A DNA stretch of 64,000 bases from assembly GCF_019285735.1 (NCBI RefSeq), contig NZ_CP079107.1, forward strand, positions 310,001-374,000, given 5' to 3'. The notes under the pieces were generated by a model that did no database searches, was not told where the DNA came from, and saw only the letters and a program-made list of their open reading frames with translations. How positions within the stretch are numbered: the first letter of the stretch is position 1; every line of letters begins with the position of its first letter. Source of the stretch: Paeniglutamicibacter sp. Y32M11 (lineage in GTDB: Bacteria; Actinomycetota; Actinomycetes; Actinomycetales; Micrococcaceae). This document shows, piece by piece, positions 2,904 to 31,562 of the stretch. Made by a program: the position numbers and the translations under genes.

Positions 2904-4217
2904 ATGAACTCCGAGACCACTCAGCAGCCGCCCCACCCGTCGCAGGCGGTCGAGGATGTTGCAAACGAATTAGTAGAAGTTGAAGCGGCAGTCGGGGCAC
3001 CGGGAGCCAGAGTGCAGCCCGAGACGCGAAATCGCTGGGCAACAGGTGCCTTAGCGGTTGCCGCCGTGGTGCTGGTGGGACTGAACCTGCGCGCCGGAAT
3101 CGCTTCGGCGGCGCCGCTGTTCCATGACTTGGAGAACCTGCTCGGCTACGGGACGCTCGTGGCCGCACTGCTGCCCACCATCCCGGTCCTGTGCTTCGCC
3201 TTCGCCGGAGCGGGAACCGCCTGGCTGGTGAAGCACACGGGTCTTGAACGCGCGATTGCGCTCGCTCTGCTGCTGCTCACCCTGGGCCTGGGCGTGCGCG
3301 CCTTTGAATCCACCTGGCTGTTGTTGGCCGGCACCGTCTTCGGCATGTCGGGCCTGGCCATCTGCAACGTGGCCATGCCCTCGTTCATTCGGGAACACCA
3401 CGCGCGGCGCACCGCGGCCATGACCGCCACCTACACCGTCACGATGTCGGTGGGCGCGACCACCGCCGCGGCACTGAGCGTGCCGATCGCCGCGCAGCTC
3501 GGCTCCCCAACGCTCGGCTTAGCGGCCTGGGCCATCCCGGCGGGAATCGCACTGCTGGTCATCGTGCCGCTGGCCTGGCGCGGTAGCCGCGTCGCTGGCC
3601 CCACGGCGCCACATATCTCCCCTTGGCCCATGCTTGGCACCCGCAAGGGCCTGCTTTTCACCTCGGTTTTCGCGGTCCAGGCGCTGCTGGTGTACACACT
3701 ATTGAGCTGGTTGCCGCACATCCTTATCTCGCGCGGGCTTGATCCGGCCACTGCCGGCTTCATGCTCGGTCTGGTCCAGGCCGTCAGCATCCCCACCGTG
3801 GTGTTGTTGCTGTGGATGGCCTCGAAGCCGCGGCTCCTGCGACCGGCCTTCATACTGACCTGTGCGTGCTCGCTCGCCGGGTTTAGCGCCCTGTTGGTAC
3901 TTCCGGTGACACTCTCGATCGTGCCCGCGGTGCTGATCGGCCTGGGATTCGGGATTTTCCCGTTGGTGATGCTGATGATCAGCCGCAGCGGCGAGAGCGC
4001 CGCGGAAACCACCGCGCTATCCACCCTGGCCCAGTCCGTCGGATACCTCATCGCCGCCACCGGGCCGTTCGGGCTCGGCTTGTTGCAGGGTGTTCTGGGT
4101 TCCTGGAGCGTCCCGCTGGTGATCCTTATCGGGTTCTCTGCGCTGCAGTTTGTTCTGGGTTACCGGCTCGGTGGCAGCGGGCGCAAAGCGAACGTCCCGG
4201 CGCAGGTGCGCTCATGA
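2904..4217 (+). CDS. MFS transporter, CynX/NimT-like
   Basis: A 437-residue protein with about twelve membrane segments; the first is WATGALAVAAVVLVGLNLRA after a 45-residue charged N-terminal tail. It shares the CynX/NimT pattern LNLRAGIASAAPLF with the divergent transporter at 1525-2751 (LSLRAPIIAPTAVI), so the two are related. Start choice is open: ATG 2904 lies 5 bases after the operator palindrome and would need a nearly leaderless transcript, whereas GTG 3012 (VQPETRNRWA) has GGGAG five bases upstream. The stop overlaps the GntR gene start by four bases (ATGA), so the two genes are translationally coupled. Confidence 0.82.
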   Translation: MNSETTQQPPHPSQAVEDVANELVEVEAAVGAPGARVQPETRNRWATGALAVAAVVLVGLNLRAGIASAAPLFHDLENLLGYGTLVAALLPTIPVLCFAFAGAGTAWLVKHTGLERAIALALLLLTLGLGVRAFESTWLLLAGTVFGMSGLAICNVAMPSFIREHHARRTAAMTATYTVTMSVGATTAAALSVPIAAQLGSPTLGLAAWAIPAGIALLVIVPLAWRGSRVAGPTAPHISPWPMLGTRKGLLFTSVFAVQALLVYTLLSWLPHILISRGLDPATAGFMLGLVQAVSIPTVVLLLWMASKPRLLRPAFILTCACSLAGFSALLVLPVTLSIVPAVLIGLGFGIFPLVMLMISRSGESAAETTALSTLAQSVGYLIAATGPFGLGLLQGVLGSWSVPLVILIGFSALQFVLGYRLGGSGRKANVPAQVRS

Positions 4218-29200: not shown

Positions 29201-29234
29201 GAAAGTAGGGCTCACTGACATGAGCCCTACTTTC
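29201..29234 (+). terminator. 14-bp hairpin between peptide and kinase genes (terminator or attenuator)
   Basis: Perfect arms GAAAGTAGGGCTCA (29201-29214) and TGAGCCCTACTTTC (29221-29234) with a 6-base loop. There is no T-run after it. The ATG at 29220 lies at the end of the loop, so that codon would be sequestered. It may set the peptide-to-kinase ratio. Confidence 0.65.
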
Positions 29235-30506
29235 AGACAGAATGGGGTAGTGAAACTATCTCGTTCTCCACTGACCGTAAACGAATTATCGTCCGCTCCG
29301 TTAGGACGGACGATTCTTCTCATTGCCAGCGGTATTGTTGCGTTGTTGCTCATCACCGATGTGGTGAGTCTGCTCAGCGAAGCTGATCCTGCGCAGCAAA
29401 TGGTTCGGGCAACGGAAGTTATGGTTAGCGGGGCCTTCACTCTGGCTCTGGGGCTGCTGTGGGTGAGGACACGGATAGCTGTCGTAGCGTCAGTTCTGGC
29501 CATGATCTTGGCCTTGGTCGTGGGTAAGTACCTTTTCGCCCTGCTTGTGGTTCCACTCCTACTGGGCTTGGTGACGTTGACCCAAACCCGGAAATTCTCA
29601 TTTAGATACTTTTTAGTGACGCTGGCTTGGTCAATTTCCATCGTTGTGGTGCGTTCGTACGACGTTGGATTCTTGATCCTCCTGATCCCGTTGTTGGCCG
29701 CTGCATACTTCGTCGCGCTTTTCGCACGAAAATATCAGGAACAACGCGAAGCGGACCGGAAGCGCATCGAAGACCTGCGAATCAAGCAGCAAGAAGCAGT
29801 TGACGCAGAGCGCAAGGCCATCGCGCGGGACCTTCATGACATCGTGGCGCATGACATCACCGTCATTTCTATGCAGGCCAAGGCCGCGGGATTCTCGGGT
29901 GATCCCGCGGTGGCCCAGGCAGCCCTCAAAGTTATTGGAGCAACCTCAAGGGAAGCCCTGCAGGATTTGCGGGTCATGCTCAATGTTCTGCGCAAAGACG
30001 GCCCAGCCACGCGTGTGGATGGATCGCTCGTCGATTCGGCAGGAAACGCGGCCAGCAGTCTGGAGATCCTGATTGGTGTTGAGGTTTTTGCCGAACGTTT
30101 GGTGGACCTAGGGCATCCCACCGAAACCAAGGTTGACCCTAAGCTTGCCTCGCTGCCGCAATCCGCGCAGACGGCGTTGTATCGGGTGTTGCAGGAATCC
30201 ACGACAAACATCGTCAAACATGCTGAACCGGATGCTCCGTGCCGGATCGAAGCGTTGGTGGTCGGAAACCGCATTTGGCTGGAAGTTGCGAACGCGTTGC
30301 CCCGACTAAGCACAGATCAAGGCTTCGGCAGCGGTGGACATAGCTCGGGGATAGTTGGAATGTCCGACAGGATGGCAACTTTCGGAGGCACGCTTTCGGC
30401 TCAACGTGTTCGCGGTGATTGGGTAGTGCGCGCGGAATTACCCGCAAGTACGTTGGGAATGGGCAAGGGGCACCATGTGGAGCAAACGGGCGGGCAACGC
30501 ATTTAG
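29220..30506 (+). CDS. Membrane sensor histidine kinase (HisKA_3/NarX-DesK-like)
   Basis: A 428-residue kinase counted from ATG 29220; because that codon lies in a hairpin, GTG 29250 (VKLSRSPLTVNE) is an alternative start. About six membrane helices span residues 30-170 without an extracellular domain, followed by a coiled linker (ARKYQEQREADRKRIEDLRI). The HisKA_3 box is AIARDLHDIVAHDITVISMQ with His206; the ATPase N-box is VLQESTTNIVKHA and the G-box GHSSGIVGMSDRM. As in many actinobacterial kinases of this group, the D-box Asp is replaced by Asn (LEVANALP). The partner is most likely the response regulator at 28228. It may sense the adjacent secreted peptide. Confidence 0.88.
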   Translation: MSPTFRQNGVVKLSRSPLTVNELSSAPLGRTILLIASGIVALLLITDVVSLLSEADPAQQMVRATEVMVSGAFTLALGLLWVRTRIAVVASVLAMILALVVGKYLFALLVVPLLLGLVTLTQTRKFSFRYFLVTLAWSISIVVVRSYDVGFLILLIPLLAAAYFVALFARKYQEQREADRKRIEDLRIKQQEAVDAERKAIARDLHDIVAHDITVISMQAKAAGFSGDPAVAQAALKVIGATSREALQDLRVMLNVLRKDGPATRVDGSLVDSAGNAASSLEILIGVEVFAERLVDLGHPTETKVDPKLASLPQSAQTALYRVLQESTTNIVKHAEPDAPCRIEALVVGNRIWLEVANALPRLSTDQGFGSGGHSSGIVGMSDRMATFGGTLSAQRVRGDWVVRAELPASTLGMGKGHHVEQTGGQRI

Positions 30507-30664
30507 TGAGGTTACCTCACTAACTATGGCCAATAGTCTAATGTGCTGCACTGCCGGTGTGGATAGTGTTGTTACTAGATCGGCGGCATAGCCGATTGGT
30601 GGAACCCGGAAATGTTTTGCGAGTGGCGTTTCTAGGTATCACCTCCAGCACGCCAGACGACGCC

Positions 30665-30856
30665 AGTCCCGCTGACCAAGCCCCCAAGTTGGTTAGCACT
30701 AGGGGAATCGTGTCAAATGCTTTCCCCCAAGGAGCATTTGACGCCCAAGATTCCTGGTAGTTTCTACCCCCAAGGGAAGCTACCTTCGGCGCCGTCGGGC
30801 GTGCTGATGTTTAAGTACCCTTAGCCGAGCCGGGATCGAGTGATCCGGTTATTTGC
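30665..30856 (+). ncRNA. Candidate structured RNA: three tandem hairpins with CCCCCAAG loops
   Basis: Three consecutive hairpins with unrelated stems carry the same loop: A, GCTGACCAA/TTGGTTAGC (30671-30697, loop GCCCCCAAG); B, GTCAAATGCT/AGCATTTGAC (30712-30742, loop TTCCCCCAAGG), extended by GGAATC/GATTCC (30704-30709, 30749-30754); C, GGTAGTTTC/GAAGCTACC (30756-30784, loop TACCCCCAAGG). The C-runs begin at 30681, 30724 and 30767, exactly 43 nt apart. Stems differ completely while loops are constant, as expected of a functional RNA. A terminator follows (30830-30854). The design recalls the actinobacterial 6C RNA, but has three hairpins and five Cs. C-rich loops could pair with G-rich ribosome binding sites. 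The 5' end is not defined. Confidence 0.7.
30830..30854 (+). terminator. Terminator of the hairpin RNA
   Basis: CCGGGATC (30830-30837), loop GAGT, GATCCGG (30842-30848), one bulged G, then TTATTT. It supports plus-strand transcription of the preceding hairpins and a 3' end near 30855. Confidence 0.6.
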
Positions 30857-30938
30857 CCCAGCGGGAATGAATTGAACTTGCAAGGCGGTTATCTAGCAGT
30901 AGGAAACCACCAAATCCCGCATGGAGAGCACCACATAA

Positions 30939-31562
30939 ATGAGCATTGAAGCTGTCACAAACGTGTACGACCAGCTAGCCATCGACAAAGACACGGCAGA
31001 CAAGCTGTTCCTTGAGGCCCGTACCGCCAATACTTTTTCGAACGACGAAGTCTCCGAAGAGACCCTTGAAGCCATTTATGAGCTCACCAAAATGGGCCCG
31101 ACGATGATGAATAATCAGCCGCTGCGCATCACCTGGGTTAAGAGTGCAGAAGCCCGCGAGGCAGTTGTTGGCCAGATGATGGAAATGAATCGGCCCAAGT
31201 CCCTATCGGCACCCGCGCTGGCGGTGCTGAGCTATGACGCCGACTGGCACGAACAGTTCCCCGTGTTCTTCCCACACGCGGCCGAGCGCAAAGCGATGTT
31301 TGACGGCGATGCCACGATGCGAGCCGAAATCGCCAAAAACAACGCATGGATGCAGGCCGGATACTTCATCATGTCCGTCCGCGCTGCGGGCCTGCATGCC
31401 GGCCCCATGGGTGGATTTGACGCGGCTGGAGTGGACGGCGTTATCAACGAGGGATCGGCCAATCACGCCTTCCTGATTGTCAATGTGGGCACTCCGGGAG
31501 AAAACCCCTGGTTTGACCGGTTGCCGCGCCTTGATACTGAAATGGCCACCCGCAGTATCTAG
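30939..31562 (+). CDS. Nitroreductase-family protein, malonic semialdehyde reductase (RutE)-like
   Basis: A 207-residue flavoprotein. The pattern (LFLEARTANTFSNDEVSEE, then TKMGPTMMNNQPLRITWV, and KNNAWMQAGYFIMSVRAAGL, HAGPMGGFD) matches the RutE/HadB branch of the nitroreductase family, which binds FMN and reduces malonic semialdehyde or similar small carbonyls with NAD(P)H. It is cytoplasmic, without signal peptide. No other rut (pyrimidine degradation) genes are adjacent. A GGAGAG lies about 13 bases before ATG 30939. A strong bidirectional terminator follows. Confidence 0.82.
   Translation: MSIEAVTNVYDQLAIDKDTADKLFLEARTANTFSNDEVSEETLEAIYELTKMGPTMMNNQPLRITWVKSAEAREAVVGQMMEMNRPKSLSAPALAVLSYDADWHEQFPVFFPHAAERKAMFDGDATMRAEIAKNNAWMQAGYFIMSVRAAGLHAGPMGGFDAAGVDGVINEGSANHAFLIVNVGTPGENPWFDRLPRLDTEMATRSI

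Follow-up and report, generated by a model that had tools for sequence, protein, structure and literature searches.

Gene context and fold of the locus

In the window, i.e., the whole 64-kb stretch of DNA from the soil bacterium Paeniglutamicibacter sp. Y32M11 that was analyzed, a sensor histidine kinase gene and a nitroreductase-fold gene flank a structured RNA, RNA-A, whose fold covers 30575-30812 (+) and is composed of two 5′ hairpins followed by a cloverleaf (Table 1). The CCCCCAAG run occurs in each of the three arms of the cloverleaf, always inside the hairpin loop. Four copies of this run are found in the whole 64 kb, against 3.55 expected by chance; three copies packed into 94 bases, all of them in hairpin loops, are therefore not a chance occurrence.

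Table 1. Features at the RNA-A locus (window coordinates)
Feature	Position	Strand	Basis or remarks
Sensor histidine kinase gene, neighbor	29220..30506	+	
Palindrome TGAGGTTACCTCA (TGAGG..CCTCA), likely site for a regulator, lying ahead of the RNA promoter	30507..30519	.	Conservation
Box TATGGCCAATAGTCTAATG, probable activator/promoter element	30525..30543	+	Few changes in 11 aligned loci
Probable −10 element TAGTGT	30564..30569	+	Predicted; TA conserved in 11 aligned loci
Hairpin H1 (ATCGGC/GCCGAT)	30579..30596	+	Helix 1; 97.0% of cells paired, both-side change in 1/6 pairs
Hairpin P0, loop TTTTGCGAGTGG	30598..30643	+	Helix 2; both-side change in 8/15 pairs
Cloverleaf core, closing stem around three arms	30646..30806	+	Fold and covariance model R1
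Closing stem	30646-30664 with 30788-30806	+	18 consensus pairs
Arm 1, 9 bp, one G-T; loop CCCCCAAG at 30681-30688	30671..30697	+	Helix 4
Arm 2, 10 bp core; loop CCCCCAAG at 30724-30731	30712..30742	+	Helices 5-6
Arm 3, 9 bp, one G-T; loop CCCCCAAG at 30767-30774	30756..30784	+	Weakest helix (7); pairing in 78.2% of cells
ECF-type promoter GGAAT-N18-GGTT of the next gene, outside the RNA, marking its downstream limit	30864..30890	+	Conservation
Nitroreductase-fold gene, malonic semialdehyde reductase family (NF003768), neighbor outside the RNA	30939..31562	+	

The fold agrees with the initial annotation, which had described three tandem hairpins with stems of 9, 10 and 9 bp and one G-T pair in the first and third. 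These hairpins are real, but they are the arms of a cloverleaf under a closing stem, and two further hairpins lie on the 5′ side. In the closing stem, CAGCACGCC-A-GACGACGCC pairs with GGCGCCGTC-G-GGCGTGCTG, one of the consensus pairs being A-C in the window sequence, and the core of arm 2 is lengthened below by a bulged GGGGAATC/GATTCC helix. The fold energy is −99.4 kcal/mol for 30640-30870 (z −6.3 versus shuffles) and −115.7 for 30575-30812 on the + strand (z −8.8), compared to a z of −4.75 for the minus strand of the latter interval. The loops are exposed, with a mean unpaired probability of 0.85-1.0 in all 11 RNA-A and 12 RNA-B (see below) sequences folded.

Conservation and covariation of RNA-A

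The region is recovered by blastn within the genus. The covariance-model search proposed in the initial annotation was performed with a model, R1, built from eight relatives with the window sequence left out; R1 scores the window sequence at 153.8 bits and finds RNA-A in 14 of the 15 genomes of the Paeniglutamicibacter group, which comprises Paeniglutamicibacter species as well as strains labelled Arthrobacter or Micrococcaceae. The sole genome of the group that lacks RNA-A, G013, also lacks the RNA-B pattern. P. sulfureus (G010) harbors an additional diverged copy, L031 (G010:C9:245000-248200), which brings the total to 15 RNA-A loci; the kinase and reductase genes are unmatched in the 3.2 kb of this locus.

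Covariation was evaluated on an alignment of 11 of the 15 sequences, in which 75 pairs were tested. Changes on both sides affect 30 of the 75 pairs versus 13.0 in shuffles (0/500 shuffles as high), a control that can overstate significance when the sequences are related, and 93.6% of the alignment cells pair versus 35-46% in slid versions, a control that preserves relatedness. The low pairing of arm 3 arises partly from an alignment shift of the window sequence and L002 at this arm. The loops hardly vary while the stems covary. Loops 1 and 2 read CCCCCAAG throughout the 11 aligned sequences, whereas loop 3 is CCCCAAG, with four C instead of five, in nine of them, which corrects the constant loop of the initial annotation. 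Likewise, the 43-nt spacing is exact in the window, where the runs start at 30681, 30724 and 30767, but it is not strict, since it varies from 40 to 44 bases in relatives. The case that would have spoken against the initial interpretation, i.e., relatives that keep the stem sequence but lose the pairing or the loop, was looked for and did not occur. Besides the C-rich loops, the P0 loop TTTTGCGAGTGG is kept just as strictly in the 11 aligned sequences on a stem that covaries, and differs in L031; it may constitute a second functional site.

The alignment also distinguishes the two strands. The consensus energy is −90.9 on the + strand versus −68.3 on the − strand, and the pair counts are GU 97 and AC 15 on the former versus GU 64 and AC 28 on the latter. 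The arms are palindromic, as they would be in a DNA element such as a cruciform or a protein-binding repeat; yet the strand asymmetry in GU/AC counts, the lower consensus energy on the + strand and the presence of promoter-like boxes at a fixed place all argue against a DNA element, to which we give next to no credence.

A second RNA exposing the same loops

A search with a three-loop pattern uncovered another RNA, RNA-B, in 14 of the 15 genus genomes, G013 being again the exception. RNA-B is located upstream of rplJ-rplL in all 14 loci, with rplA on the other side in 10 of them and the other four stretches without an rplA match; the Y32M11 copy lies at G000:C1:2815909-2816003 on the − strand. 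In RNA-B, two 5′ hairpins are followed by three more, whose loops are CCCCAAG, CCCCCAAG and CCCCCAAG; its stems differ from those of RNA-A, while the loops are the same. In an alignment of 12 of the 14 sequences, 95.1% of the cells are paired, and 23 pairs are changed on both sides, against 8.5 in shuffles. Inspection by eye reveals a conserved −35/−10-like promoter, TTGTGN-TANNNT, and a T-rich tail behind the third hairpin in some of the loci.

The covariance model of RNA-B, R2, finds a copy between rplA and rplJ in Zafaria cholistanensis (E 1.1e-12). The stems of this copy are much changed, identical columns between the Zafaria and Y32M11 arms amounting to just 25/48, 22/33 and 34/56 even with the loops counted in, and the loops still contain CCCCCAAG. 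RNA-B is matched weakly by R1, and since R1 and R2 each match the other RNA weakly, a common origin of RNA-A and RNA-B is possible.

At this locus, then, lies a conserved structured RNA on the + strand that exposes three CCCCCAAG loops on covarying stems, and RNA-B carries the same loops. The initial proposal that different stems present an invariant loop is borne out by the covariation of the stems and by the repetition of the loops on other stems in RNA-B. Because a second RNA displays the same loops on different stems, the loop is suggested to be a working part of the molecule; fixed loops on changing stems in two RNAs point straight at what is functional. The invariance of the loop across two genera could also reflect an action on another structured RNA with an invariant G-rich stretch (e.g., rRNA or a housekeeping RNA), a reading we regard as very improbable.

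Further candidates have been observed in some species. CCCCAAG loops and strong terminator-like hairpins characterize both a candidate RNA-C (L058, L069, L087), which is 3′ of a guaB-like gene, identified by eye, in L087, the sole locus examined, and a candidate RNA-D in G012 (L086, G012:C139:141214-141285, −). Another candidate is located at G000:C1:2510308 (L085).

Probable promoters, 3′ side and relation to the neighboring genes

The palindrome upstream of RNA-A is found at 14 of the 15 loci, the exception being L031, and TGAGGNNNCCTCA matches once in the window (0.07 expected). The TATGGCCAATAGTCTAATG box has its sole match in the window when up to three mismatches are allowed; in relatives, the conserved upstream box is TATGGYCAA-RGTC-AATG-like and the −10-like element reads TA..GT. 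A scan with the sigma-70 consensus gave no promoter at 30564..30569. The start of RNA-A is predicted at about 30574-30578, just past TAGTGT. The upstream boxes would set the timing of RNA-A production, and the histidine kinase, or the neighboring two-component system, is a possible controller of the RNA.

On the 3′ side, the initial annotation had placed a terminator with TTATTT. The corresponding hairpin sequence, GGATCGAGTGATCC-TTATTT, does exist in the window from 30832 on, but when the DNA behind the RNA was scanned loosely for a hairpin plus T run, similar sites turned up in just 3 of the 15 loci (the window, L002, which is its near twin, and L013), so a conserved terminator was not found. 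The putative terminator overlaps a stretch that resembles GTGA-N6-TCAC in relatives (7/15 loci, loose pattern). Behind RNA-A, GGAAT-N18-[G/C]GTT, which we take to be the consensus of SigR/SigH-type ECF sigma factors, is present in 14/14 loci holding the reductase gene.

RNA-A could conceivably form the 5′ leader of the reductase mRNA and control that gene in cis. Indeed, the reductase gene follows in each of the 14 genomes with RNA-A at this place, and no conserved terminator separates the two. However, the conserved ECF-type promoter lies between RNA and gene in 14/14 loci, the reductase gene is unmatched in the 3.2 kb of the P. sulfureus copy L031, and RNA-B, with the same loops, sits elsewhere in the genome; a cis-acting leader is consequently judged improbable. 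Because promoter-like boxes precede RNA-A and the next gene has its own ECF-type promoter behind the RNA, RNA-A is probably separate from the reductase mRNA. We infer that RNA-A and RNA-B are transcribed as separate sRNAs, with the loops as seeds.

Comparison with known RNA families

The initial annotation considered the RNA undescribed and distinct from 6C, and the searches concur. Rfam 15 at gathering score gave no match in the window, nor any over one locus each of the RNA-B, RNA-C, RNA-D and Zafaria copies. The 6C model (RF01066) scored above its cut-off in 0/15 genus genomes, with weak matches at other places in five of the 15, and, with E values up to 10 allowed, no row fell in the region; since no control genome exceeded the cut-off either (2/14 rang), this search is not very sensitive, and RNA-A is not 6C by the tests available. 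The Scr2736 model (RF02831) had no match in the window or in one locus each of RNA-B, RNA-C, RNA-D and Zafaria. RNA-B shares with the L10 leader (RF00557) its position upstream of rplJ, but the L10-leader model did not match over RNA-B, its one weak match in the Y32M11 genome (26.6 bits, cut-off 44) being separate (L084, 3146-3316 versus 3386-3561 for RNA-B). Among the matches listed in the open-licence literature, no title describes RNA-A or RNA-B, and none concerns Paeniglutamicibacter by genus name. To our knowledge, sRNA regulation in Micrococcaceae seems little studied.

Several systems nonetheless offer analogies. CsrB/RsmZ-type sponge RNAs repeat a GGA motif on their loops and titrate CsrA. 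They resemble RNA-A and RNA-B in that one identical loop is repeated on different stems, but the motif is here the C-rich CCCCCAAG instead of GGA and has no known protein. The 6C RNA reportedly was the subject of a study by Mai et al. in 2019. It is described as a pair of stem-loops with six or more C (PMC8388888), whereas RNA-A has three arms within a closing stem and two further hairpins on the 5′ side, and its loops, CCCCCAAG or CCCCAAG, have four or five C and a fixed AAG. Like RNA-A, 6C and B11 present C runs on stem-loops; either C-rich loop of Mycobacterium abscessus B11 is enough for repression of a 5′ UTR containing a G tract, which makes its loops redundant (PMC10470900). LhrC of Listeria is multicopy, has several redundant C-rich sites, binds a G-rich sequence upstream of the start codon and is induced with the participation of a two-component system (PMC4132741). 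It differs from RNA-A in sequence, structure and lineage, and its sites are CU-rich, one lying in a single-stranded stretch (PMC4132741). The UCCC-loop sRNAs of Gram-positive bacteria (RNAIII, RsaE, FsrA) also have C-rich sites that bind G-rich sequence. Finally, C-rich loops are reported for scr5583 and scr1434 of Streptomyces (PMC3765725).

Candidate targets and proposed mode of action

By analogy with mycobacterial B11/6C, the RNA-A loops most likely pair with G-rich ribosome-binding sites, one of the two options named in the initial annotation, the other being a protein. On balance, we favor a model in which RNA-A acts as a regulatory sRNA in its own right, about 235-250 nt long, made from a regulated promoter of its own and equipped with loops of this function. 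Each loop would pair via CCCCC(AAG) with a G-rich ribosome-binding site, optimally CUUGGGGG located a few bases upstream of the start codon, and would thereby block ribosome entry on several mRNAs; several loops per RNA would provide redundancy and allow one RNA to act on more than one mRNA, as described for B11 and LhrC. Should the loops work like those of B11, Actinobacteria would possess more than one form of C-loop sRNA.

Possible targets were sought with the pattern CTTGGGGG-N3-14-RTG, which has 57 matches in the Y32M11 genome versus 35 for a reversed-pattern control; neither this contrast nor another, of 333 versus 99, is usable as evidence, because the control reverses ATG. Inspection covered 40 matched stretches, 24 from the Y32M11 genome and 16 from relatives, the latter picked for A-rich spacers or recurrence and hence not a fair sample; 11 of the 40, representing seven different genes, look like gene starts. 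Among the 24 own-genome stretches, only L399 clearly resembles a gene start; its product is receiver-like by eye and has no Pfam match. The other candidates include a family 2 glycosyltransferase (L430) and, by eye, a secreted protein (L421-L423) and a secreted coiled-coil protein (L427-L428). The candidate genes carry CTTGGGGG 4-6 bases ahead of ATG. For two of them, CTTGGGGG before the start is kept in 5/5 species having the gene; these two genes are found in just 5 of the 15 genomes, that of Y32M11 not among them. Predicted loop-target duplex energies are about −13 to −25 kcal/mol, versus −5 to −10 for an invented ordinary SD.

The supposition that the loop binds such sites thus finds individual conserved CUUGGGGG examples but no clear genome-wide excess. 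CTT precedes GGGGGNNNNNATG in 21 of 133 cases in four genomes, where the other trinucleotides are CTC (31), CCC (25), TTC (18), TCC (16), TTT (12), CCT (9) and TCT (1), and in 2 of 34 in the Y32M11 genome alone. A spacer of 5 is over-represented (35/121 rows, five genomes), a figure confounded by codon phase. Because the trinucleotide control is negative, the antisense reading draws on precedent and examples, not on statistics. As side observations, G013, which lacks RNA-A and the RNA-B pattern, has the fewest CTTGGGGG-N3-11-ATG matches (10 versus 12-29 in the others), and an uncharacterized TTTGGGGGTTTCGATG repeat occurs in the Y32M11 genome as seven identical strings at G000:C1 93640, 105751, 491376, 498251, 507909, 1350702 and 1359759.

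The AAG stretch also counts against antisense pairing, for it is no less strictly conserved than the C run, and base pairing with varied mRNAs would not call for this. This strictness, together with the three loop copies per RNA, the near-invariance of the loop in two RNAs whose stems differ and in a second genus where the stems change, and complementary start sites that show no clear genome-wide excess, would suit an RNA-binding protein that binds the CCCCCAAG loops and is soaked up by RNA-A and RNA-B in the manner of CsrB/RsmZ and CsrA. We consider such titration, the main rival reading, unlikely, though to be taken seriously; the actinobacterial C-loop sRNA B11 acts on mRNAs (PMC10470900). 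If the partner is a protein, a post-transcriptional regulator is still to be discovered. A bolder and somewhat more doubtful idea is that CCCCCAAG is a shared loop code on which two or more RNAs with unlike stems (RNA-A and RNA-B, joined in some species by RNA-C/RNA-D) converge, competing for one dedicated partner, most boldly an actinobacterial RNA-binding protein, which would form a CsrA/CsrB-like layer of control in Micrococcaceae.

Distribution beyond the genus and rejected look-alikes

Searches over more than 40 genomes used stricter filters, and weak relatives may thus be missed. The three-loop pattern matched 22 of 245 family genomes, namely the 14 of the genus, Zafaria, G101 and six others whose matches were rejected, since they look by eye like Pro-Lys coding repeats. 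G101, another Micrococcaceae genome, displays tandem CCCCCAAG...GGGGGTG units (L055, L076) that are unlike RNA-A and RNA-B. Over 197 family genomes, R1 matched 13, 12 of them from the genus; the remaining match, in G093 (E 0.08), is a long palindrome and was rejected. Over 178 genomes and at E up to 1, R2 matched 25: 10 from the genus, that of Zafaria and 14 more with E values of 0.001 or worse, of which five were inspected and all rejected by eye. In viral contigs, 120 stretches fit the bare pattern, and blastn of the RNA against plasmids and phages gave no match. A T-containing version of the pattern was found in 3 of 394 class genomes, Y32M11 and two whose matches resemble an element of Streptomyces.

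This Streptomyces element, with CCCCCAAG multi-hairpins in 14 of at least 118 stretches fitting the pattern, was rejected as a family member because its other strand folds better and carries an Rfam match. The consensus energy is −69.2 on the Scr2736 strand versus −52.3 on the other (9/14 loci aligned), and the Scr2736 match (RF02831) is on the strand opposite the CCCCCAAG runs in 3/3 loci searched. In three loci, the element is beside citrate synthase or its neighbor, and in two of them (L106 and L162) it is 3′ of citrate synthase itself. In its own right, the element (L106, L162, L104 and 11 other loci) is a conserved multi-hairpin, adjacent to the Scr2736 match, with repeats that read CTTGGGGG on the Scr2736 strand, and the 64-nt model of Scr2736 may fall short of the full length of this RNA.
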